33,486 nt of DNA from assembly GCA_021850605.1 (NCBI GenBank), contig JAJZLQ010000127.1, positions 1 through 33,486 on the forward strand, read 5' to 3'. The notes under the pieces are model-generated. The model ran no database searches and was not told the DNA's origin. It saw only the letters and a program-made list of their open reading frames with translations. The DNA is from Actinomycetes bacterium. GTDB lineage: Bacteria > Actinomycetota > Acidimicrobiia > Acidimicrobiales > Acidimicrobiaceae. Shown here in pieces: positions 7,957-22,057 of the stretch (position 1 is its first letter; every line of letters starts with the position of its first letter). The position numbers and the translations under genes are program-made.

Positions 7957-8888
7957 ATAGGCTTTCGTGTCATGTACGGTCCTCGTTGGCGAAGGATGGG
8001 CATTTGCGGCCCAAATACGGCAGGTGAGAAGGGGGGAAGATCGGGCGTGGTGGGGCCGGATCTCCAAAAGGAGCGCCTGAGTTCAGTCATGAGGAGAGGA
8101 GCGACCGCCCCGGCTTTGAAGACCGGAGGCTCCGGCGTGGCAGATCGTCGGCCGGTGCCATTGGCATCATTTCGGTGGACGGAGAGCGATACCTCCTCCG
8201 GGTAACGGAATTCCTAAGAGGGGGAACCATCTTGGCGCAGTGGTCCCGGCCAGACAGTTTGCCGCGGACGCTCTGCCGCACTGCCCGGCGGTGGGCTCCC
8301 TCAGGAGGGCAGGGGGGCGATCCTGCGCTCGAGGCTGCAATGCCGATTGGGCGCGAGGGGGACTCCCCGGGATTCAGCCGACCTGGGCGCGACCAACTCT
8401 GCCCTGCCGGACGGGCCGAGCCCCCTATGAGTGAGGCCGATCGACGGGCCCATCCTGGTTTGTTGCCAGGATCCAGTCGGCGCCGTACCGCAGTATGAGA
8501 GGGGAACGGTGCCGACGAAGGCGGTGTGCACTTCGCGCTTCGCGGTATCTGCGTGCGTCGTCACCCTGAGGCTGCCGCAGGCCGGTGCGTGAAATTCCTG
8601 CGGATGGGTTGCTCAGCTCGCCGATCATCGGGCGGGAACACCGTTTCCCTCGCCACCGGGACAGGACGCAATGGATGGCGGCGGCGACGGCTAAGCGGTC
8701 CGGGGACGGGTGCCGGCGCCCTCGGGCGCAAGGTGGAGGGCCGGGACCCAGCGGTACTCGCTCGAATTCCGGCACCAAACCGTGAGAGGTTCTCGGGCCG
8801 GGCAGCAAGTCGGGTCATCTGCGCGGGTGGGCACGCCACAACTCCGAAAGTGCTTGCGTGACTACGTGGCTTTGTGGCATTGTTTTTA

Positions 8889-8914
8889 TAGTAGAAACTA
8901 GAAATAATATCTAG
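8889..8914. promoter_or_regulatory. Candidate operator TAGT-AGAA-ACTA overlapping CTAGAAATAATATCTAG
   Basis: Dyad in the promoter/leader of the hemerythrin gene; core TAGTAGAAACTAGAA is shared with 12672-12685. Confidence 0.5.
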
Positions 8915-8939
8915 AGGAATCGAATCGAAGGAGCAAGAG

Positions 8940-9887
8940 ATGATGACAAGCGCCCAGGCGTTGGAGGCGATGCTGGGGCACCACGCCGCCTTGGAGGAAG
9001 GTGTGTCGCGGCGAGTGGCGACGATTGAGGCGGGGGGCGACGGAGCATCCATGGCTGAGCTTCTCTCCTACATGGCGAGCGAAGTGTTGCCGCACGCTAT
9101 CGCTGAGGAGCAAACCATTTACAAGGTGGCGGCCCAGAGGGAGAATCTCGCTGCGACGATCGAAGGCATGGTGGAAGAGCACCGTCAGCTCTCGGCTCAC
9201 CTGGACCGCCTTGCAACGGCCGACGAGCGATCAGCAATAACCGAAGCCAAGGCGATCGAGGTTCTCTTCAGGGATCACGTCGCAAAGGAAAACGAACGGA
9301 TTTTGCCGGTGTTGGCAGCGGATGCCGGTGTCAACCTGGGGACGTTGCTGGAAACGATGCACTCCGCGCTGGAAGCCGCATCACTGGGTGATGGAGAACC
9401 CGTGGCCGCTGCTCCCGCCGACACCGAGGGGGCTTTGCTTCGACTGGTGTTGGACGGGGCCTTCGCACTCGCGGCCGCGGGTGAAGGTGATCGTGCGTGC
9501 AGGCTGGCCGCCGAGGCGTGGACCCTGGTCAGGGTTGGGCGGCCCGACCTCGGAGTGCACGTTACCGCGGCCATGCACAAGCTGGTGCGTTCGGTGACTG
9601 CGGAGCCGGTGAAGCTCACTTCCGGCCCGGCGCATTCGGAGGCAACCGGGGACTCAATCCTCGATGTGCGCAAGCTTGCTCCGGCCCAGCGCCACGAGAC
9701 GATATTTGCGACCTACGCGGCGCTCAAGCCCGGCGCAGGCTTCGTACTGGTGAACGACCACGATCCCAAGCCGCTGCGCTATCAGTTCGAGGCGGAGCAC
9801 TCCGGTGAGTTCACCTGGGACGTTATCGAGGCCGGCCCCACCGTATGGAGGATTCGAGTCGGGCGCTCGTTCCCGGCGGCCGGCTAG
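8940..9887 (+). CDS. Hemerythrin-domain protein with C-terminal DUF2249 domain
   Basis: N-terminal H...HE...EE / EEHRQLSAHL / FRDHVAKENERILP hemerythrin-type His/Glu ligands; C-terminal ILDVRKLAPAQRHETIFATYAALKPGAGFVLVNDHDPKPLRYQFEAEHSGEFTWDVIEAGPTVWRIRVGR. RBS AAGGAGC. Confidence 0.88.
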   Translation: MMTSAQALEAMLGHHAALEEGVSRRVATIEAGGDGASMAELLSYMASEVLPHAIAEEQTIYKVAAQRENLAATIEGMVEEHRQLSAHLDRLATADERSAITEAKAIEVLFRDHVAKENERILPVLAADAGVNLGTLLETMHSALEAASLGDGEPVAAAPADTEGALLRLVLDGAFALAAAGEGDRACRLAAEAWTLVRVGRPDLGVHVTAAMHKLVRSVTAEPVKLTSGPAHSEATGDSILDVRKLAPAQRHETIFATYAALKPGAGFVLVNDHDPKPLRYQFEAEHSGEFTWDVIEAGPTVWRIRVGRSFPAAG

Positions 9888-9988
9888 GTCGGGATGCCCA
9901 GCTTTCCTTTCCGGCGGAAAGTGGCAGATACCAGCACTGCCGGGCCAGGGTTGGTCCGGTAGTCGCACTTGATCGGCCTTATCCCGAC
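9888..9988. other. Candidate structured RNA / nested hairpins closed by GTCGGGAT...ATCCCGAC
   Basis: Closing 8-bp arms 9888-9895 / 9981-9988; internal TTTCC-GGC-GGAAA (9908-9920) and GGGCCA-GGGT-TGGTCC (9942-9957). Confidence 0.3.
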
Positions 9989-10205
9989 GCTCTCGACTTT
10001 GCCCGGCGGTTACGTTTCCAATTGGACTGGCTCATCCCGGCCTGCGCGGACGCTGCGCCTGGTTGAAACGGAAAGGCCCCGGGCCCGGACGTCCGTGATG
10101 GCGTCGTCGAACACGTCTGCAAGATGTGGGAACCGGGGCCGGCGTGCTTTACGACAGCCGACGGGTCCCTGCCGCTAGGGGGCCGGCGGCATCCGTCACT
10201 CTCGA

Positions 10206-10301
10206 GGAGAAATGTTCTCCGGAGCCACCCGTTGCCGGGTGGCGGTGACGGTCCTATGCTGCCCGCCCCCCGGGGTGACCGGCGGCGCCGGTTCCTGCCC
10301 C
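10206..10301. other. Run of three tandem hairpins
   Basis: GGAGAA-ATG-TTCTCC (10206-10220), CCACCCG-TTGC-CGGGTGG (10225-10242), ACCGGC-GGC-GCCGGT (10278-10292) with flanking GGGG/CCCC. Confidence 0.4.
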
Positions 10302-10998
10302 AGTGGAGTTAGCCGGCGCCGGTGGCTACTACACGAGGCGAGGGGAGCCGGGCCGGCTTTTGCTTTCCTGAATCGTGAGCACGTCGTTGACGACGGCTAC
10401 CACCTCGCGGCCAGGACGAGACTAGCCCTCCTATGGGGTGCTCTTGTGGTCGAACTGGTGGTTCAGTACGCGCGGCGAAGATCGTGGATCGCCCGGTTGA
10501 GATGGGTCTTTCCCGGTTAATGGCCAGAGTCACTGGCTAAGGCGGCCTTGCCTGTCACACCGTGGGCTCCTGACCACCTCGGCCTCGGGACGCTTGGCCA
10601 GGCCGGTGGTCCGCCAATCCAGCCCAGGCGATCCCGGTATTCCGGCAGCCGGGTACCCGTCGATCCGGGGCCGGGCGGGCTGCTCGGCGAATGACACCCG
10701 TGAGTAGATGGCTATGCCGCCGGTAACCAAAGCCGGATCGTCCACCGGGATCATGCCGGTGGCGCGCTGGCGGCCTACCCATTCGAACTTCGCCCCCTCA
10801 GCTGGCTTTACCTGCCCGCCTTGGCCAGATGCCAGGACGCTTGCACTCGGCCGAGACGTGGCGACTCGTTCTGGGGAACAGTTCGTACCCTTTTAGTGCC
10901 TATCGGGCTGCGATATGGTGCTGCGGGAGCGGGGGCTCAGTCCCGGCGCCTCTTTTCGAGTTGCGCCTGTTAGGCCAGCACCTATATGCCGTACTTGA

Positions 10999-12372
10999 CT
11001 AGTAGTTATGCCCGACTGGCGCGACCGCGGACGCGGTCTGCGGGCCCGGGTGACGCAGGATGCGCAGCGGTATCGCCACCAGATCAGTACCGACGATGAC
11101 TGCCGTAGCCGCGAATAGGAAGCCTGCGGTCCCGATCGTGGTTGGGTTGCCGAATCCGAGCCCAAGGCAAAGTGCGACCATGCCGACGGTGACGGCCGCA
11201 TAACTGACCGCCGCCCAAGTGTGGTTGTAAAGGTCGGCGAACATGAGGGGCTTCCCGGTGGGCCCCGTGGCGATGCCCCGGGAGCGCAGCACCGACCAGA
11301 CGATGAAGGGAACCACCTTGTAGGAGTGGCCGACCAGAGCGACCAAGACCCAGCCGCCAAAGGCGGCCATCGCCGCGGCTGCGAGGGCGACGCCCGTATG
11401 GTAGTGGTACGGCATTGTCCAGACGGCGGCAATGGCCAGGCCGGTGCCGGCTGGCAGGAAAGCCGCCGAAGTCAGCACGAAGGCCAGGTGCAGGTCCGCC
11501 TGGCGGCGACGATGGCGAACGTGAGCGACCAGGGAGGCGAGGTGGGCCCCAAGGCCGCAGGCGATGAGCACCGCGCCAGGCCAGGCCAGGAGGCCCACGC
11601 TGTAGGCGAGCCCCGGGGCGGACAGCGCAACACCCAATGAGATACCCCATACCGCGAGGCCACGCGAGCGGCGGCGTCCAGGCAAGTGGGAGAGCATGAA
11701 CATCGGCCAGAGCTTTTCGGCAACCCCGACGTAGGTCATCCCCAGCCAACCAAAGAGCCCGAGTACTCCCATGGCCAGATCGACATGCCCGGAGAAACTG
11801 AACCAGTTACCCTGGCGGTTGCCGACGAAGAGGACACCCAGGAAGCCGGTGGCAACCGCCCCCGCCATCGCGATACGCAGGGCGGCAACCGGAGCGCCTT
11901 TGCCTTTCACGGCGAGTGCAGGCGCGAGATTGACGACCAGCAGCACCACGGCCACCCCGATCAACGCCCCGGCAATGGCGGTCACAGTCACCTGCTCGGT
12001 GGCGACACCGAGCGGAAGAGCCCAGGATGCCGGCAGGAAGAAGGCGAAGGTCAGGCGCCCAAGAAGGGACGACCGCAGTGGCCTGCCGGTGATGACCGGG
12101 GTGAACTGGTGTGCCGCTCCTAGCACCGCCATTGCCAGGGTGGCCAATACTCCGAAGTGGACCGCGGCAACCACCGGGTCCGCACCGGGAGACGTGGCTG
12201 CCGCGCCGCGCGCCCAAATCCAGGTGACGCCGGTGGCGAGAAGCCCCAAGGGGGCGGCGGCAAGAAAGGCCAGTGGGATCGAAGGTGGTGGCACCGTTCC
12301 TGGCAGTCCGGGCGGGCGCCCTTTCCAGACCCCGGGTAGGTCGGGCTGGTTCCTCGTTGCTTCAGTCGCCAT
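10999..12372 (-). CDS. Multi-pass membrane protein, heme-copper oxidase subunit I-like (NnrS/NorB-like candidate)
   Basis: 457 aa, about 12 hydrophobic segments. Conserved-looking His in membrane context: VHFGVLATLAMAVLGAAHQFTPVITG, SGHVDLAMGVLGLFGWLGMTYVGVAEKLWP, MPYHYHTG, GHSYKVVPFIVW, YNHTW. Confidence 0.55.
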   Translation of the reverse strand: MATEATRNQPDLPGVWKGRPPGLPGTVPPPSIPLAFLAAAPLGLLATGVTWIWARGAAATSPGADPVVAAVHFGVLATLAMAVLGAAHQFTPVITGRPLRSSLLGRLTFAFFLPASWALPLGVATEQVTVTAIAGALIGVAVVLLVVNLAPALAVKGKGAPVAALRIAMAGAVATGFLGVLFVGNRQGNWFSFSGHVDLAMGVLGLFGWLGMTYVGVAEKLWPMFMLSHLPGRRRSRGLAVWGISLGVALSAPGLAYSVGLLAWPGAVLIACGLGAHLASLVAHVRHRRRQADLHLAFVLTSAAFLPAGTGLAIAAVWTMPYHYHTGVALAAAAMAAFGGWVLVALVGHSYKVVPFIVWSVLRSRGIATGPTGKPLMFADLYNHTWAAVSYAAVTVGMVALCLGLGFGNPTTIGTAGFLFAATAVIVGTDLVAIPLRILRHPGPQTASAVAPVGHNY

Positions 12373-12671
12373 GGTTGCCTCGCTTGAAATGGAGTGGAGT
12401 TAATGCCTGCGCCTCAGGTCGCGGTGCCATCGTCATCGTCGAAGCCCCTTGTCGGGAATCTTGGCGGTTGCCGACTCGGCCAACGATGCTCGTGGCGACC
12501 CTCCGGTGGTGGGCATGCTCAACCGCGGCTACAAAACGGTGGCGCAAGTCCCTCACGGCTTTTCACTCTTTTCCCTGCTGGGCCGGATCATTCACGGCTG
12601 GTGGACATTTCTGGTCAGATCCTTCATCGGCCGCCCGATTTCGGCTTCCAGCTCGTAACTGGATAATATCT

Positions 12672-12685
12672 CTAGTAGAAACTAG
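12672..12685. promoter_or_regulatory. Candidate operator CTAGT-AGAA-ACTAG
   Basis: Perfect 5-N4-5 dyad inside a longer AT-rich imperfect inverted repeat (ATAATATCTCTAGTAGAAACTAGAATAATAAT), in the divergent region between 12372(-) and 13056(+). Confidence 0.55.
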
Positions 12686-13055
12686 AATAATAATCCCCAG
12701 GGCGGCTGGCAAGTGTGCTGGGAGCGAAATGCCCGGAGTCTCCGACGGCGAGACCGAGGACCGGTATTCCAGAGGTCGGATGCCCCCGCTTGGCGGTCGG
12801 CGAGGAGAGGGCGTCTTTTGTTCGCCGGGCGAAGGTGCCCCTCGGTCGCCGCTCTATCGAGATGGGGCCGCCGAGCGTGACGGTGCACCCACCGAGGGTC
12901 CGACAATGGGAGCGACGGCGCGGAATCCTCCGTCCCCGGGCAGCGATTCGTGGCGCTATGGCAAAGGTGATGATAAATTCTAGCCTGGAGCAGAAAAAAG
13001 CTTTGAAGGTGGCGGCCGCATGGAAGGCGGCTTGCCAATGACTGAGGAGGTGTTG

Positions 13056-13277
13056 ATGGCGACGGTCGACGCGCGGCCCATCATTGCGGGGGGCGGAGAG
13101 CCCTTTGATGCCATCATGGCGGCGGTGAGCTCTCTCGAGGACGGCGAGGATCTCGTGATCCTGGCACCGTTCGAGCCCGTTCCGCTAGAAGGAGTTCTTT
13201 CCTCCCAGGGCTTCACCTACGAGGCCGCAGACCTTGGCGGTGGGGACTGGCAGGTCACCTTCCGGCGGCAGCCATGA
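13056..13277 (+). CDS. DUF2249-domain protein
   Basis: MATVDARPIIAGGGEPFDAIMAAVSSLEDGEDLVILAPFEPVPLEGVLSSQGFTYEAADLGGGDWQVTFRRQP. GAGGAGG RBS places the start at 13056 rather than 13020. Confidence 0.8.
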   Translation: MATVDARPIIAGGGEPFDAIMAAVSSLEDGEDLVILAPFEPVPLEGVLSSQGFTYEAADLGGGDWQVTFRRQP

Positions 13278-13648
13278 CCGGCTCGGGCAACCGTGCGGAG
13301 TCGGGGTCAATCGCAGACGATCTCTTCAAACTCCGCGCCGGCGATGCCATAGAGGCTGCGAGGGATGCCCTGGGTGGCGTATACGACCCTGAGCTCGGCC
13401 TTGACCTCGTTTCGCTCGGGTTGGTCTACGACGTTCGCGAAGAGGACGGACGCCTGGTGGTGGAGATGACGCTCACGACAGTAGGCTGCCCCGCTTCGGA
13501 GAGTCTCCCGGATATGGCCACCGCTGCGGTCGAGGAGGCTCTTGGCGGCGCGGTCGCAGTGGAAGTCCGTGTTGTCTGGGATCCACCTTGGGACCCGTCC
13601 ATGCTCAGCGAGACGGCGGCAACGGCGCTGGGCTTCCGGATCCGCTGA
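13274..13648 (+). CDS. MIP18/DUF59 (PaaD-like) metal-sulfur cluster assembly factor
   Basis: ARDALGGVYDPELGLDLVSLGLVYDVR...VEMTLTTVGCPASESLPDMATAAVEEA...VRVVWDPPWDPSMLSETAATALGF. Confidence 0.92.
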   Translation: MTGSGNRAESGSIADDLFKLRAGDAIEAARDALGGVYDPELGLDLVSLGLVYDVREEDGRLVVEMTLTTVGCPASESLPDMATAAVEEALGGAVAVEVRVVWDPPWDPSMLSETAATALGFRIR

Positions 13649-13662
13649 CCCGGGGCGGAGCC

Positions 13663-14028
13663 GTGTTCCCGATCCTGGTCGCCAGGGTCTACGACTTGCC
13701 CACGCAGCGAGGCTCTGAACATCGCGTTCTGGTGGACCGCTTGTGGCCCCGAGGATTCAAGAAGGACGCGCTTGCCCTTGATGGATGGGCCAAGGACGCA
13801 GCTCCGAGTACGGCGCTGCGCAAGTGGTACGGGCACGACCCCGCGCGTTTCGAGGAGTTTGTAGGCCTCTACCTGGCCGAGCTGGCGACCGAGCCGGCGC
13901 TGTCCGCCGTCGCCGAGCTGCAGGAAATGGCCAGAGAGCGGACGTTGATTCTGCTTACGGCTACAAGAGACCCGGAGCATTCTCATGCGCAGGTCTTGCG
14001 TGGCGTAGTGGCCCAAGGCCATGGTTGA
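13663..14028 (+). CDS. DUF488-family protein
   Basis: ILVARVYDLPTQRGSEHRVLVDRLWPRGFKKDALALDGWAKDAAPSTALRKWYGHDPARFEEFVGLYLAEL; GTG start at 13663. Confidence 0.85.
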   Translation: MFPILVARVYDLPTQRGSEHRVLVDRLWPRGFKKDALALDGWAKDAAPSTALRKWYGHDPARFEEFVGLYLAELATEPALSAVAELQEMARERTLILLTATRDPEHSHAQVLRGVVAQGHG

Positions 14029-14155
14029 GGAGTCCTCCGACCCTCCAGCCGACGCTAACGACGGGTCGGGAAAGGCTCGAACGGCGAACGCACCCGCCAC
14101 GGGTGTTACCCTTGGTTCGCCTTGCGTTTGCTGTGCGCCATCCGGACTCCATTCC

Positions 14156-14806
14156 CTATTTGCGGCGTAGTGCCAGGAGGCAGCCGGCATCGCCGGGATC
14201 CTTGGCCACCAGCTCCTCTACCTCCAGGCCCCCTAGTCCCTCGGCGAGGCCCTCCACTAGCCCTAGGTGCAACTGGCAGACGGTTCCGGGATCGGAGCGC
14301 GCAACCTCTGCGAAAGGGCATCGGCCGAGGATGAACTCCAAGCGGCCATTCCGATCCTCCAGGGTGGGACGGAATCCCCGCCTGAGCATCTCCGCCTCGA
14401 GGAGCACTGTGGGATCGGTTTCCGGGCTGCCGATTTCGGCCGCCCGGCGTAGCCCTTCCTCCCGCCCTGCAAGGCGCGGCTCCTCCCGATTGCGAAGGGC
14501 GGTAGCCAGCAGGTTGGCCAGCCAGGGGTACGCACCTGGTGATCCCCAATGGTCCCGGACCTCGGGGTGAAGGCGATAAAGTAGCCTGGGCCGACCCGGC
14601 CGGTCGCGTTCCTCGCGTTCCTCGACTACCAGGCTTGCATCCTTGAGGACCGCGAGGTGCTGGCGTACGGCGTTGTGGTTGAGCCGTGTGTACTCCGTCA
14701 ATTCGGCCACGGTGACCGCGGAATCGCGGTCCGCGATGTACTGGAAGATTCGGTGGCGAGTCGGGTCGCCTAGCGCCCGGGCTTCTTGCTGCAGCGTATC
14801 GTTCAC
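14156..14806 (-). CDS. ArsR-superfamily / SufR-like HTH transcriptional regulator with C-terminal Cys/His motif
   Basis: EARALGDPTRHRIFQYIADRDSAVTVAELTEYTRLNHNAVRQHLAVLKDASLVVEE; C-terminal RCPFAEVARSDPGTVCQLHLGLVEGLAEGLGGLEVEELVAKDPGDAGCLL resembles the SufR-type Fe-S ligand arrangement. GTG start at 14806 with GGGAG RBS. Confidence 0.82.
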   Translation of the reverse strand: MNDTLQQEARALGDPTRHRIFQYIADRDSAVTVAELTEYTRLNHNAVRQHLAVLKDASLVVEEREERDRPGRPRLLYRLHPEVRDHWGSPGAYPWLANLLATALRNREEPRLAGREEGLRRAAEIGSPETDPTVLLEAEMLRRGFRPTLEDRNGRLEFILGRCPFAEVARSDPGTVCQLHLGLVEGLAEGLGGLEVEELVAKDPGDAGCLLALRRK

Positions 14807-15110
14807 GTCACGATCTCCCTGAAGGTTGAGTATAGGTACGCCCGATCCTCGCGGCCCTTTTGGGCGGATCTCCTTGTGAGGTGGGGTGAGTTGTTCGCCC
14901 GCGTGCACCGGTCGCCGGTACCGCGCCTTCCGTCGGCAACTCGACGGAGCTGCGCCGCCAGGCACGCCGGTCGGCCCGTCCGGAGCACTTGGGCGATGAC
15001 AGAGGGCCGGGGGGTTCGGGCTCCTCAGTGCCTCCGAGGGGATCAATTACGCTACGCCTCCGGCCTTGTCGAACCATCGACGTGCGATAGGATCGAGACA
15101 ACTCTTTGAA

Positions 15111-15129
15111 GTGCAACCGCGGGTTGCAC
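15111..15129. promoter_or_regulatory. Perfect inverted repeat GTGCAACC-GCG-GGTTGCAC
   Basis: 8-bp perfect arms, 3-nt centre, in the divergent intergenic region between the SufR-like gene and narG. Confidence 0.55.
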
Positions 15130-15383
15130 GAGATTTGATAACTCACTGCCTGCCCCAGCGCCCTCGGCGCTCGCCATATGTTCGGGGCCGTCTGGAATGC
15201 GGCTCGACTATGCCGTGCGTTGGCTGCGACAACGCCAGAAGCTCCGGCTGTTTGGAAATGACGCACTTTGGGCCTGATTCTCACTGCCGCCATTGAATAT
15301 AGTAATTGCAGCGCAGGCTAGAAATATGATCCAATTGGTATTTAGGCTGCGCAGCTGGAACCTAAAAGCAAAGGATCGGCCAA

Positions 15384-18300
15384 ATGAAGAGAACGCCCGG
15401 CGCAGATTCCACCAGTGGCCTTGGCGATTCCGGCCTGGTCAGGGCGGCTCGTCATATCCAACGTGGAGACACTTCGCCGGACCTGAGGGAATTGCATCGC
15501 AAGGGTGGCCGGCAGGCCGAGGAGTTCTACCGCGATCGCTGGCGCCATGACAAGGTGGTCCGCTCCACCCACGGAGTCAACTGCACGGGTTCATGCTCTT
15601 GGCGCATCTTCGTCAAGGATGGCATTATCACCTGGGAGAACCAGGCAACCGACTATCCGTCGGTTGGTCCTGGCTCTCCGGAGTACGAGCCGCGCGGCTG
15701 TCCCCGGGGAGCTTCTTTTTCCTGGTACACATACTCCCCGGCACGCGTGCGCTATCCGTATGTAAGGGGCGAGCTGCTCGAGGAGTATCGCCGCGCCAAG
15801 AGCCGCACCGGCGACCCGGTCGAGGCATGGGCGGCTGTCGTCGAGAACCCCGAATCGTCCCGCCGCTACAAGAGCGCCCGCGGTCGCGGTGGATTCGTGC
15901 GCGCCAAGTGGGAAGAAGTCCTGGAGATGACGGCTGCCGCCCACGTCCACACCATCGGCCGATACGGGCCGGATCGCACGGCGGGCTTCACGGTCATCCC
16001 GGCCATGTCCATGGCCTCCTACGCGGCCGGGAGCCGCTTCTATTCGCTGATTGGTGGCACGATCCTGTCCTTCTACGACTGGTACGCTGACCTGCCGATT
16101 GCATCGCCCCAGGTTTTCGGCGACCAGACCGATGTCCCCGAATCCGCCGACTGGTGGAATGCCTCATACCTCATCCTCTGGGGCACGAATCTGCCCATCA
16201 CCAGGACTCCGGATGCCCACTTCATGACCGAGGCGCGCTATCGGGGGCAGAAGGTGGTGGTGGTCTCCCCCGATTACTCCGACCACACCAAGTTCGCCGA
16301 TGTCTGGCTTTCTCCCGTGCCCGGCACCGACGCGGCACTGGCACTCGCCATGGGGCACGTCATGTTGACGGAGTTCTATCGGGACCGGGAGGTTCCCTAC
16401 TTTCAGAACTACGCCCGCACCTATACGGACCTGCCTTTCCTGATCAAGCTGCGTGAAAAGGATGGCGCCTGGGTCCCGGACCACTTCCTCACCGCGGCGG
16501 ACATCAAGCCTGGTTCGAGCGCGGGCGAGGACCGATGGAAGACAGTGGTCTTGGATGAGGGAACGTGGGAGCCGCGGGTGCCGAACGGCTCGCTGGGTTT
16601 CCGGTGGTCTCAATCGGGCGAAGGTAGGTGGAACCTGGAACTCGGAGATACCAAGCCGGCGCTCAGCGCGATGGACGCGCCCGGGCGGGGCCAGGCCGAG
16701 GTGCTCCTGCCCCGGTTCGATCGGGCCGGGGAGGGAGCAATAATGCGGCGCGGCGTGCCGACTGTTCAGGTGGGAGGCCACATGGTCACCACGGTGTTCG
16801 ACCTTGCCATGGCGCAGTACGGAGTTGCACGCCCAGGGCTTCCGGGCCGCTGGCCCGAATCGTATGACGACGCCGAGGAGCCGGCCACGCCGGCTTGGCA
16901 GGAGCGGGTTACCGGCGTCCCGGCTGAAGCGGCCATAAGGGTGGCCAGGGAGTTCGCGAGCAACGCCGAGCTTTCGCGGGGACGGTCGATGATCGCGATG
17001 GGCGCCGGTACCAACCACTGGTACCATTCCGACCAGATTTACCGGTCGTTCCTCTCCCTGCTTCTCCTGGGTGGCTGCCAAGGGGTGAACGGTGGGGGAT
17101 GGGCGCACTACGTCGGCCAGGAGAAGGTGCGTCCGTTCACGGGCTGGTCGACGCTCGCCTTCGCCTTGGACTGGGTGCGGCCGCCAAGGCAGATGGTCTC
17201 AACCCCGTTCTGGTACCTTGCCTCGGACCAATGGCGCTATGAGGGCACGACCGCCGACTCACTGACCAGCCCGTTGGCCGAGGGCGGCTTGGCGGGTATG
17301 ACCATGGCGGACCTGTATCTCTCCGCCACGCGGCAAGGGTGGCTGCCCTCCCATCCCTCCTTCGATAGGAACCCGCTGGACCTGGCGGAGGATGCGCTGA
17401 GCTCGGGCATGGCTCCAGCGGAATACGTCGCCGACGAACTGAAAGCGGGCAGGTTGCATTTCGCGGCTGAGGATCCTGACGATCCGGCCAATTTCCCGCG
17501 CGTGATTACCACCTGGCGATGCAATCTGCTTGGCTCATCGGGCAAAGGGCACGAATACTTCCTGCGTCATCTGCTCGGGGCCGACAACGCACTCGACGCC
17601 GACGAGGTGGAGGAGGAGTTGCGCCCAAAGGAGGTCAAATGGCGGACCGAGGCACCGGAGGGCAAGGTCGACCTCTTGGTCTCCATCGACTTCCGCATGA
17701 CCTCCACCGGCATATACTCCGACATCGTCCTTCCGGCGGCCACGTGGTACGAGAAGCACGACCTCTCCTCTACCGACATGCACCCCTTCGTGCACTCGTT
17801 CAACCCGGCCATTGCTCCTCCCTGGGACTCCCGCAGCGATTTCCAGATATTCCATGACCTTTCCAGGGCGTTCTCAGTCATGGCGGAGGGCAAGCTTGGC
17901 AAGCGCAATGACCTGGTGGCCACCCCGCTGATGCACGATTCGCCCGACGAATGCGCCCAGCCAGGCGGCGTCTCGATGGATTGGGCCCACCTTGGTACGG
18001 GGCCGACTCCAGGGGTGAATATGCCCAGGATCACCTTGGTGGAGCGCGACTACGCGCGAGTGCACGAGCAAATGTCGACCATCGGGCCGCTGATCGATGG
18101 GCTTGGTGCGACTGTGAAGGGAGTCCGCTTCCCGATCGCCGACGAGGTGGGATACCTGGCGGAGCGAAACGGTACGGCGCGCTCGGGAGCCGGGGCAGGG
18201 CGGCCCAGGATCGACAGGGACGACCTTTTTTGCGAAGCGATCCTCGCCATGTCCGGCACCACCAACGGCCGGCTGGCGGTCGCCGGATTCGAGAACCTCG

Positions 18301-19079
18301 AGAAACGCACCGGCGTGCCACTGGCGGACCTCGCCCATGAGCGGGCGGGGGACCGGATCACTTTCTCCGACACTGTGACGCAGCCGCGTTCGGTCATCTG
18401 CTCGCCCGAATGGTCGGGATGCGAGTCGGAGCGGCGCAGATACTCCCCCTTCACCATCAATGTGGAGAGGTTGAAGCCCTGGCACACTCTCACGGGCAGG
18501 CAGCACTTTTTCGTGGACCACGAGTGGATTTCCGAACTTGGAGAGTCGCTGCCGGTCTACCGGCCGCCGCTCGACCTGCTCGCCACATTTGGAGATCCTT
18601 CCGATCCCGAGTATGGGGCTGAACAACTGGTGGCCAGGTATCTGACCCCGCACTCGAAGTGGTCCATCCACTCCGAGTACCAGGACAACCTGCATATGCT
18701 CAACCTCTTTCGCGGAGGGCCGGTTATCTGGATGAATGACCGGGATGCCGGGAAGATCAAGGTGGCGGACAACGACTGGATCGAGGCCTACAACCGCAAC
18801 GGTGTGACGGTGGCACGCGCGGTCGTGACCCACCGGGTGCCGGCCGGGTCGGTACTCATGTATCACGCGGTTGACAGGCACCTGCAAATGCCCGTATCTG
18901 AGCGCTCGGGCCTGCACGGAGGAACGGACAACTCGCTGACCCGTGCGACCATGAAGCCCACGCATATGATCGGCGGATCCGCCCAGCTTTCCTGGGGCTT
19001 CAACTATTACGGGCCGACCGGGACTCAACGCGACGAGATCGTCGTCATCCGGCGCAGGAGCCAAGAGGTGAAATTCTGA
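15384..19079 (+). CDS. narG: Respiratory nitrate reductase alpha subunit
   Basis: 1231 aa; HGVNCTGSCSWRIFVKDG, YPSVGPGSPEYEPRGCPRGASFSWYTYS, SFYDWYADLP (Mo-ligand region), NWRHTLTGRQHFF-like, WGFNYYGPTGTQRDE. Confidence 0.98.
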   Translation: MKRTPGADSTSGLGDSGLVRAARHIQRGDTSPDLRELHRKGGRQAEEFYRDRWRHDKVVRSTHGVNCTGSCSWRIFVKDGIITWENQATDYPSVGPGSPEYEPRGCPRGASFSWYTYSPARVRYPYVRGELLEEYRRAKSRTGDPVEAWAAVVENPESSRRYKSARGRGGFVRAKWEEVLEMTAAAHVHTIGRYGPDRTAGFTVIPAMSMASYAAGSRFYSLIGGTILSFYDWYADLPIASPQVFGDQTDVPESADWWNASYLILWGTNLPITRTPDAHFMTEARYRGQKVVVVSPDYSDHTKFADVWLSPVPGTDAALALAMGHVMLTEFYRDREVPYFQNYARTYTDLPFLIKLREKDGAWVPDHFLTAADIKPGSSAGEDRWKTVVLDEGTWEPRVPNGSLGFRWSQSGEGRWNLELGDTKPALSAMDAPGRGQAEVLLPRFDRAGEGAIMRRGVPTVQVGGHMVTTVFDLAMAQYGVARPGLPGRWPESYDDAEEPATPAWQERVTGVPAEAAIRVAREFASNAELSRGRSMIAMGAGTNHWYHSDQIYRSFLSLLLLGGCQGVNGGGWAHYVGQEKVRPFTGWSTLAFALDWVRPPRQMVSTPFWYLASDQWRYEGTTADSLTSPLAEGGLAGMTMADLYLSATRQGWLPSHPSFDRNPLDLAEDALSSGMAPAEYVADELKAGRLHFAAEDPDDPANFPRVITTWRCNLLGSSGKGHEYFLRHLLGADNALDADEVEEELRPKEVKWRTEAPEGKVDLLVSIDFRMTSTGIYSDIVLPAATWYEKHDLSSTDMHPFVHSFNPAIAPPWDSRSDFQIFHDLSRAFSVMAEGKLGKRNDLVATPLMHDSPDECAQPGGVSMDWAHLGTGPTPGVNMPRITLVERDYARVHEQMSTIGPLIDGLGATVKGVRFPIADEVGYLAERNGTARSGAGAGRPRIDRDDLFCEAILAMSGTTNGRLAVAGFENLEKRTGVPLADLAHERAGDRITFSDTVTQPRSVICSPEWSGCESERRRYSPFTINVERLKPWHTLTGRQHFFVDHEWISELGESLPVYRPPLDLLATFGDPSDPEYGAEQLVARYLTPHSKWSIHSEYQDNLHMLNLFRGGPVIWMNDRDAGKIKVADNDWIEAYNRNGVTVARAVVTHRVPAGSVLMYHAVDRHLQMPVSERSGLHGGTDNSLTRATMKPTHMIGGSAQLSWGFNYYGPTGTQRDEIVVIRRRSQEVKF

Positions 19080-19098
19080 TGCGGACTGGAGCGCGCAG

Positions 19099-20685
19099 AT
19101 GAGAGTAATGGCCCAGGTGGCAATGGTGATGAACCTGGACAAGTGCATTGGGTGCCACACCTGTACGGTCACCTGCAAGCAGACGTGGACCAACCGTCCG
19201 GGGACTGAGTACGTCTACTTCAACAACGTCGAGACCAAGCCGGGACTTGGCTATCCACGCCGTTACGAGGACCAGGAGCAGTGGCGCGGCGGATGGGAGC
19301 TAGATCGCCGCGGAAAGCTCCGCCTGCGTTCCGGTAGCCGGCTCGCGCGGCTTGCGAAGCTTTTCTACAATCCCGATCTTCCAACCATCGAGGAGTACCA
19401 CGACCCCTTTACCTATGACTATGCGAAGCTGATCTCGGCGCCGGCCGGCACCAAGGCGCCTTCTGTCTCGGCCCGTTCGGCGCTCACCGGCAGGGAAATG
19501 GTTCCCACGTGGGGGACGAACTGGGAGGACGACTTGGCGGGTGCGCCTGCCCGGGCTCATGACGACCCCAACTTTGCGGCCGTGGCCGAAAAGGTCCGGC
19601 TCGACTTCGAGTCAGTCTTCATGTTCTACCTGCCGCGTATCTGTGAGCACTGCCTTAATCCGTCGTGTGTTGCCTCCTGTCCCTCGGGCGCAATGTATAA
19701 GCGATCCGAGGACGGGATAGTCCTTGTCGACCAGGACCGCTGTCGCGGTTGGCGAATGTGTGTTTCCGGGTGCCCCTACAAGAAGGTGTATTTCAACCAT
19801 CGCACCGGCAAGGCCGAGAAGTGTACGCTCTGCTTCCCGCGAATCGAGGCCGGTCTTCCCACCGTCTGCTCGGAGACCTGCGTTGGACGCCTCCGTTACC
19901 TGGGCATCGTTCTGTACGACGCCGACCGCGTCACTCGGGCGGCGGCCACCGCCGACCCGGCTTCCCTCTACGAGGCGCAACTCGAGCTGTTCCTGGACCC
20001 GGACGACCCCGATGTGGCACGCAGTGCCGAGGAGTCCGGCATACCTCATGACTGGATTGCAGCGGCGCGGCGATCGCCCGCCTACGCGCTGATCGCGCGC
20101 CATCGGGTCGCGCTGCCGCTTCACCCGGAGTATCGGACCATGCCAATGGTCTGGTACGTACCGCCGCTTTCTCCCATCTCCGACGCGACCGCCTCGGTAG
20201 GGGGCAACCCGGAGAGCCCGGCCGATGTCTTTGCGACCATCGACGCCATGAGGATTCCGGTCGAGTACCTTGCGGGCCTGTTCAGCGCCGGCGATGTCGA
20301 GCCAGTGCGGCGCAGCCTGCGCAAGTTGGCCGCCGTTCGCACCGCGATGCGTGCCGAGCAGCTTGGTTTCGATGCCACGGCCGTCGGGGCCGAGGCCGGC
20401 ATGGAAGCATCCGACGTGCGGGACCTCTTCAAACTGCTTGCCATTGCTCGCTACGAAGACCGCTTCGTCGTACCTCCCGCCCACGCGGAGCAGGCCGGGC
20501 GGCTACTTGCCCAGCATGACCTTTCGGGCTGTTCGCTGGAGTCCTCGGGTGGATACGGCGGCGAGCCGGACATGGCCTCTTTCCACCTTGACCGGCCCAG
20601 TCCTCGGGAGCGGGACAGCAGGGGGCGGCTCCATCTGGAGATGCTCGAGCCACGCCCAGGACTCGAGCCGGGAGGTGCACGATGA
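19099..20685 (+). CDS. narH: Respiratory nitrate reductase beta subunit
   Basis: CIGCHTCTVTCKQTWTNRPGTEYVYFNNVETKPG, CEHCLNPSCVASCPSGA, CRGWRMCVSGCPYKKVYFNHRTGKAEKC. Confidence 0.98.
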   Translation: MRVMAQVAMVMNLDKCIGCHTCTVTCKQTWTNRPGTEYVYFNNVETKPGLGYPRRYEDQEQWRGGWELDRRGKLRLRSGSRLARLAKLFYNPDLPTIEEYHDPFTYDYAKLISAPAGTKAPSVSARSALTGREMVPTWGTNWEDDLAGAPARAHDDPNFAAVAEKVRLDFESVFMFYLPRICEHCLNPSCVASCPSGAMYKRSEDGIVLVDQDRCRGWRMCVSGCPYKKVYFNHRTGKAEKCTLCFPRIEAGLPTVCSETCVGRLRYLGIVLYDADRVTRAAATADPASLYEAQLELFLDPDDPDVARSAEESGIPHDWIAAARRSPAYALIARHRVALPLHPEYRTMPMVWYVPPLSPISDATASVGGNPESPADVFATIDAMRIPVEYLAGLFSAGDVEPVRRSLRKLAAVRTAMRAEQLGFDATAVGAEAGMEASDVRDLFKLLAIARYEDRFVVPPAHAEQAGRLLAQHDLSGCSLESSGGYGGEPDMASFHLDRPSPRERDSRGRLHLEMLEPRPGLEPGGAR

Positions 20686-21308
20686 CCAGCCGGGAGGATC
20701 GAATCGTCTACGGGTGCGCCGCGGTGCTGCTCAGCTATCCAGGGGATCAGTTCTCCCAAGACATGGCTGCGGTTCGAGTAGCCGCCGAGGGCCTGGGGCG
20801 CAAGGGGGCGGGGCCGGCCCTGGCCGCCTTGGCTCAACGCCTCGATGGGATGGGGCGGGACGAGGCGGAGCGCGTCTACGTCAGTACCTTCGATCTGGGG
20901 CGCCGTGTAACGCTGAACCTTACCTATTACAGCCATGGCGACACAAGGAGCCGTGGAGCGAGCCTTGCCGAGTTGGCGGAGGAGTACGCGATGGCCGGGA
21001 TGCGGCTCAGCGGCGGGGAGCTTCCCGACTTCCTCCCGGCACTGCTGGAATTGGCGGCAACCACGAAGGAGGGAAGCGGGATCCTGGCCCGCCACGAGCC
21101 TTCCTTGCGCACGCTCGCCGATGCGCTGGCCCACGAGAGTTCCATCTTCCGGGAGGTGGTCGAGGCCCTGGTGGCGATGCTTCCAAGAAGTGGGCGGCGA
21201 AATCGGCCCGAGTTACGCCTTAGCGAGGAGGGGCCGCCGCTCGAGATGGTTGGCCTTGGAAATCTGCCTGGCTATGGCGTCGGGCATGGCGGCGGAGGAC
21301 ACGCGTGA
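20682..21308 (+). CDS. narJ: Nitrate reductase molybdenum cofactor assembly chaperone
   Basis: YVSTFDLGRRVTLNLTYYSHGDTRSRG; ELPDFLPALLELA; overlaps narH and narI. Confidence 0.95.
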   Translation: MTSREDRIVYGCAAVLLSYPGDQFSQDMAAVRVAAEGLGRKGAGPALAALAQRLDGMGRDEAERVYVSTFDLGRRVTLNLTYYSHGDTRSRGASLAELAEEYAMAGMRLSGGELPDFLPALLELAATTKEGSGILARHEPSLRTLADALAHESSIFREVVEALVAMLPRSGRRNRPELRLSEEGPPLEMVGLGNLPGYGVGHGGGGHA

Positions 21309-22057
21309 ACGGAATCACAACTTTCCAGCTGCTCATCTGGGTGATCCTGCCGTACATCGCTCTGTCGGTCTTCGTGATAGGGCACATCTGGCGTTACCGC
21401 TACGACCAGTTCGGTTGGACCAGCCGCTCCACGCAGCTACAGGAAAAGAAGCTGCTATCCATCGGCTCGCCCCTGTTCCACTACTCGGCATTGCTGGCCA
21501 TCGGTGGTCATGTCATCGGAATCCTGATCCCGGAGACTTGGACACAAGCGGTGGGAATCTCCGAAGGAACCTACCACCTCTTCTCCGCCGTAGCGGGATC
21601 CCTGGCTGCCGCAGGCGTAGTTGTCGGCGTCTTGATTCTTGCCTACAGGCGCCTCTTCGTGGTCAGGGTCAGGGCGACCACCACCGCCGTCGACTGGGTG
21701 GCGCTCATCCTGCTGGCGATCGTAATTGCCCTGGGGGTGGCGGAGACCGTAGGGGTCAACCTGCTTGGCGGCGGCTATGACTACCGGCTGAGCGTCGCGC
21801 TTTGGTTCAGGGGATTATTCGTGGGTAATCCGGATGTGCGTGCCATTGCCCATGCCCCCCTGCTCTATCAGGTGCATGCCTTGGCTGCTTGGCTGATACT
21901 CGCCGTATGGCCCTTCTCGCGGCTGGTGCACGCCTGGAGCTACCCGTTCTGGTACCTGTGGAGGCCGTTCCTCGTTTACCGGTCTCGGTTGGCGAGCCGT
22001 CCGAGTGAGCCGGGCACCGGCGCTAAGCGTTGGCGCCGTATCGGGGTCAGGTACTGA
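21305..22057 (+). CDS. narI: Respiratory nitrate reductase gamma subunit (cytochrome b)
   Basis: YIALSVFVIGHIWRYRYDQFGWTSRSTQLQEKKLLSIGSPLFHYSALLAIGGHVIGILIP...LLYQVHALAAWLILAVWPFSRLVHAWSYP. Confidence 0.97.
   Translation: MNGITTFQLLIWVILPYIALSVFVIGHIWRYRYDQFGWTSRSTQLQEKKLLSIGSPLFHYSALLAIGGHVIGILIPETWTQAVGISEGTYHLFSAVAGSLAAAGVVVGVLILAYRRLFVVRVRATTTAVDWVALILLAIVIALGVAETVGVNLLGGGYDYRLSVALWFRGLFVGNPDVRAIAHAPLLYQVHALAAWLILAVWPFSRLVHAWSYPFWYLWRPFLVYRSRLASRPSEPGTGAKRWRRIGVRY

Follow-up and report, generated by a model that had tools for sequence, protein, structure and literature searches.

A conserved palindrome upstream of hemerythrin and DUF2249 genes and its candidate ArnR-like regulator in Acidimicrobiia

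Several promoters in a 33,486-nucleotide stretch of an Acidimicrobiaceae genome (contig JAJZLQ010000127.1 of assembly GCA_021850605.1; the whole stretch is called the window here) carry similar AT-rich elements. They lie upstream of a gene for a hemerythrin fused to DUF2249, between a heme-copper oxidase (HCO)-like gene and a divergent DUF2249-MIP18-DUF488 gene group, and upstream of narG. A preliminary description, whose quoted strings were all found at the coordinates it gave, took these elements to mark a possible regulon linked to nitric oxide (NO) and nitrate, and named the protein encoded at 14156-14806 as one candidate regulator. Do the elements form a common operator, and if so, which protein binds it? 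The regulon reading is upheld, and that same candidate is most likely its regulator.

The unit shared by all four elements is a single palindrome of 18-22 bp, ATTTCTAGT-N4-ACTAGAAAT. The motif had originally been described in terms of half-sites. CTAGAA alone is not enriched in the window (6 found, 5.6 expected), so that counting half-sites gave no evidence and the half-site was rejected as the unit. The upstream DNA of 18 hemerythrin(-DUF2249) genes, taken from within the genus and as far out as other families in the order, contains the consensus ATTTCTAGTATATACTAGAAAT roughly 40-90 bp 5' of the start. Across these promoters the 7-N4-7 consensus is TTCTAGT-N4-ACTAGAA, with a variable centre and 26.9 bits. 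A matrix built from these hemerythrin promoters only was used for scanning in both orientations. Operators 1 and 2 (Table 1) are near-perfect palindromes, the former being a training site and the latter not; Operators 3 and 4 are degenerate. About 0.1 matches scoring at least 9 are expected per shuffled window. Because CTAGAA alone is at chance, the claims made for half-sites at 12970 and 15318 stand on the full palindrome and its conservation: they hold as the degenerate palindromes of Operators 3 and 4, which are conserved in same-genus genomes.

According to pattern searches, from which all whole-genome counts derive, the 15-mer TAGTAGAAACTAGAA has exactly two copies in 2.56 Mb, at 8889 and 12673, both in the window. 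With up to three mismatches, TTCTAGTNNNNACTAGAA was found three times in the window against 0.19 expected, a count reached by none of 100 shuffles, and nine times genome-wide, so that three of the nine sites fall within this 33 kb.

Conservation singles out the same positions. In three relatives (G003, G010, G011) Operator 1 recurs as TAGTAGAAACTAG or close to it, and several families have it in the form CTAGTNNNNACTAG. In G011 Operator 2 is kept as TCTAGTAAAAACTAGAATAATA and the Operator 3 block is conserved as well, both standing out from a surrounding 650 bp that has mostly diverged. At narG, both G011 and G003 retain the block TATAGTA-TTG-AG-GC--GCTAGAA.

The matrix was then applied to independent Acidimicrobiia loci: a scan with the regulator alignment gave 80, most of them under the titles Actinomycetes, Acidimicrobiaceae, Acidimicrobiales or Acidiferrimicrobium, and the six that overlapped the training set were left out. 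A site scoring at least 10 was present within 200 bp upstream of 26/27 hemerythrin genes, 16/18 DUF2249 genes, 48/67 regulator genes and 7/14 HCO-like genes. None of the 38 other genes in these loci had one, including NarG (2), NarH, NarI, NarJ, MIP18 and DUF488, and 3% of random 200-bp stretches did. At a score of at least 13, 91 sites fell in 29 kb of target promoters and 28 in 994 kb elsewhere, a density about 110 times higher; palindromic permuted-matrix controls gave a mean of 1.0 site inside target promoters (maximum 17). The locus counts are not independent events, since many rows are related metagenome-assembled genomes, although several families are represented nonetheless. The proposal of a shared regulon is thus upheld: in many relatives the same palindrome lies 5' of the orthologues of hemerythrin-DUF2249, HCO-like and DUF2249-MIP18, and it is absent 5' of their neighbours. 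That the palindrome is a real operator we regard as almost certain.

Table 1. Candidate operators, their proposed target genes and the candidate regulator; positions refer to the window.
Feature	Position	Strand	Remarks
Operator 1 (candidate), TTTTATAGTAGAAACTAGAAAT	8884..8905	+	5' of hemerythrin-DUF2249 gene, centre ~45 bp before start; score 33.7
Operator 2 (candidate), ATCTCTAGTAGAAACTAGAATA	12668..12689		divergent region HCO-like / DUF2249; score 29.3
Operator 3 (candidate), AATTCTAGCCTGGAGCAGAAAA	12976..12997		directly 5' of DUF2249-MIP18-DUF488; score 15.7
Operator 4 (candidate, weak), AATTGCAGCGCAGGCTAGAAAT	15304..15325		5' of narG; one conserved block with adjoining TATAGTA; score 11.0
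Candidate regulator, ArnR-like	14156..14806	-	ArsR-type winged helix with C163-X13-C177-X31-C209 and H180; HTH_20 2.8e-9
Hemerythrin HHE domain fused to DUF2249, 315 amino acids	8940..9887	+	Pfam hemerythrin 1.2e-13, DUF2249 5.8e-28
HCO-like 12-helix membrane protein, 457 amino acids	10999..12372	-	no Pfam match; AlphaFold2 model, pLDDT 88
DUF2249 protein, 85 amino acids	13020..13277	+	Pfam 1.8e-16
MIP18/SufT-like FeS_assembly_P protein	13274..13648	+	Pfam 6.2e-19; TIGR02945 8.7e-25, below its cut-off
DUF488 protein, inactive N3 subclade	13588..14028	+	Pfam 3.5e-34
narGHJI respiratory nitrate reductase operon	15384..22057	+	Pfam Molybdopterin, Nitr_red_bet_C, Nitrate_red_del, Nitrate_red_gam

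The N-terminal domain of the 14156-14806 protein is matched by Pfam HTH_20, MarR_2 and HTH_5, with no Rrf2 family among its Pfam matches, and its structure model matches ArsR/SmtB folds. The three cysteines and the histidine listed in Table 1 are invariant in 34 homologues. Corynebacterium glutamicum ArnR has C179, C193 and C223 (C-X13-C-X29-C) with a conserved His, and is a [4Fe-4S] repressor of narKGHJI and hmp that is released by NO (PMC12343034). Both proteins share a winged-helix MarR/ArsR-like domain, three cysteines with C-X13-C, a nearby conserved His and, apparently, linkage to narGHJI, and both circuits would couple nitrate reductase to NO handling (PMC12343034). They differ, by the published pattern, in the second Cys gap (X31 here, X29 in ArnR) and in their targets, which are hemerythrin-DUF2249, HCO-like and DUF2249-MIP18 here and hmp in ArnR. 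The protein had been labelled SufR-like. SufR of cyanobacteria, Streptomyces and Mycobacterium also has an ArsR-like winged helix and, as predicted here, an Fe-S domain at its C-terminus; however, TIGR02702 (SufR_cyano), whose cut-off is 178.8, matches the protein in the helix-turn-helix region only, at 26.5 bits (4.4e-6). The suf genes are not the conserved target, and no suf operon adjoins the regulator in the part of the window that was studied. Because C-X13-C and the His resemble ArnR and the SufR model is not reached, we classify the protein by its cysteine pattern and winged-helix domain as ArnR-like, nearer ArnR than SufR, but not as ArnR proper. A literature search gave nothing usable on the ArnR operator sequence or on a link between hemerythrin and NO in Acidimicrobiia. 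The window's own genome encodes a second ArnR-like regulator (G000:C81:18885-19520, L234), ~43% identical and with a similar Cys pattern; it was rejected as a second candidate binder, the 12 kb around its gene holding no palindrome.

The gene of the candidate regulator is linked to the sites in several ways. In the window it is divergent from narG, and it lies near nar in several other loci. It adjoins or diverges from hemerythrin-DUF2249 in about 18 genomes overall, among them eight with a divergent and four with a tandem arrangement. Its own promoter carries the site ~35 bp 5' of the start in dozens of relatives, and less closely related genomes such as G047 (41 bp, score 19.8) and G060 have one there too. 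Across genomes, the regulator was found in 12/16 with an exact site and in 20/78 without one (Fisher p = 3e-4). On this evidence the protein first suggested as the regulator is the best-supported binder, and very probably binds the palindrome.

The position of the palindrome hints at how binding might act. The aligned hemerythrin promoters read ttgTTttTCTAGTaTA followed by nACTAGAaATA; TAnnnT occurs at +11 in 16/43 of them, and 11/43 have TTG at -15. The clearest case, G026 (L043), has TTGTAT-N17-TATACT around the palindrome. An operator within the core promoter fits a repressor, and because -35/-10-like elements bracket the palindrome in some relatives, repression with release by NO appears the likeliest mode and is itself reasonably probable. 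A dimer would sit on the 7-N4-7 palindrome with one winged helix per half-site and would block RNA polymerase wherever -35- and -10-like elements flank the site. Without NO, a [4Fe-4S] cluster on Cys163, Cys177, Cys209 and perhaps His180 would hold the regulator on the DNA. NO arising from nitrate/nitrite respiration would nitrosylate the cluster and the repressor would leave, allowing the hemerythrin-DUF2249 fusion, the HCO-like membrane protein and the DUF2249-MIP18 proteins (the latter for Fe-S repair or assembly) to be made and, in the window's genus, more nitrate reductase. NsrR would fill the same role, being a [4Fe-4S] repressor that NO releases and whose targets serve NO detoxification, but belongs to the unrelated Rrf2 family whereas the protein here is ArsR-like.

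Could the common letters instead be nothing but -10/-35 elements of AT-rich core promoters, without any regulator? TATA-like elements do overlap the flanks of the palindrome, yet a 26.9-bit palindrome with a variable centre that is concentrated at target promoters and absent from others in the same loci makes this very improbable. A different binder, CRP/FNR-type or Rrf2/NsrR-type and encoded elsewhere, with the ArnR-like gene merely one of its targets, is a more serious proposal. The FNR consensus is TTGAT-N4-ATCAA and that of CRP is TGTGA-N6-TCACA. The 5-N4-5 spacing, already noted in the preliminary description, is that of CRP/FNR-type sites, and FNR and DNR control nar and NO genes; the half-site TTCTAGT, on the other hand, is neither TTGAT nor TGTGA. 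No evidence for a CRP/FNR protein emerged, no search for CRP/FNR genes or for other regulator families in these genomes having been made. Strong sites in G073 (L141, 97% complete) and G022 (L239, 94%), in which no close homologue of the regulator was found, favour another binder, although an assembly gap may account for these as well. Since most relatives have the site at the promoter of the ArnR-like gene itself, and this gene is found linked to the targets time and again, we consider another binder unlikely.

The same regulator might also respond to another signal or act with another sign, as a SufR-like protein that senses Fe-S supply or oxidative stress, or as an activator. The family is related to SufR, a MIP18/SufT-like protein is among the targets, and relatives carry the palindrome 5' of sufB (G087 and G060, from two other families; L153:12932 and L235:10880) and 32 bp 5' of a 1-Cys peroxiredoxin gene (L167:3724 and L186:4470). 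The sufB sites suggest that the regulon can include Fe-S assembly. Against this stand the core targets, hemerythrin, DUF2249 and HCO-like, beside nar in the window, together with the Cys spacing of ArnR and the distance from the SufR cut-off, so that this possibility is somewhat better placed than a different binder and still rather unlikely. That the ArnR-like protein encoded at 14156-14806 uses the elements as its operators and is released from them by NO remains probable as a whole. Several points weigh against it besides G073 and G022. The -35/-10 spacing differs by ~2 bp between promoters, and the regulator promoter in the window's genus holds only a degenerate, decayed site. The sign of regulation is read from promoter geometry and from ArnR, and NO as the putative signal from ArnR and from the target genes. 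The inclusion of narG is the least secure: its block is conserved in three species, but in this genus the site is weak, and the independent loci offered two narG promoters for testing, neither of which scored.

Of the target products, the HCO-like protein gave no match in either Pfam or PDB sequence searches. Its AlphaFold2 model resembles cbb3 oxidase and NO reductase (TM about 0.5-0.66), by which it is identified at the level of the fold as like subunit I of these enzymes; Pfam COX1 matches 3/28 of its homologues weakly. Histidines 72, 88, 196, 229, 277 and 349 are conserved, while helix 7 appears to lack its usual His pair (CuB). In Thermus and haloarchaea, DUF2249 proteins have been associated with denitrification, but not with this regulator (PMC6282519, PMC11218638).

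Further genes preceded by the palindrome in relatives include a pyruvate dehydrogenase E1 gene (64 bp, L187:749) and, in some, an FAD/NAD reductase gene. A site of equal score at L188:724 has the same position relative to its regulator as that in L187. In G060 an open frame at L235:6407-7153, judged by eye to resemble a di-iron protein for Fe-S repair of the RIC/ScdA type, is placed between the regulator and sufB sites. The third-best site of the window's own genome by pattern search (G000:C80:4583, L236; score 18.2) lies ~50-80 bp 5' of an open frame reading like phenylacetate-CoA ligase.

The circuit is real and apparently undescribed. While the regulator is of a known kind, an ArnR-like and probably Fe-S-binding protein, the operator and the target set appear new, no description having been found in the papers searched. 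A wider reading, which may hold but which we would not yet favour, is that an ArnR-like Fe-S repressor, and not NsrR or FNR/DNR, is the main NO regulator of Acidimicrobiia, using an operator code of its own and effectors new to NO metabolism, namely the hemerythrin-DUF2249 fusion and a divergent protein of heme-copper oxidase fold without the usual helix-7 His pair. What is gained, for a class that is known mainly through genomes of uncultured members, is an operator, a candidate regulator and a short list of targets that together make up a stress circuit. The domain DUF2249, which is widespread, has no assigned function and recurs with denitrification (PMC6282519, PMC11218638), is now tied to a candidate NO-type regulator, and an unannotated oxidase-fold protein falls in the same circuit. 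The operator can be used as a probe for additional targets.

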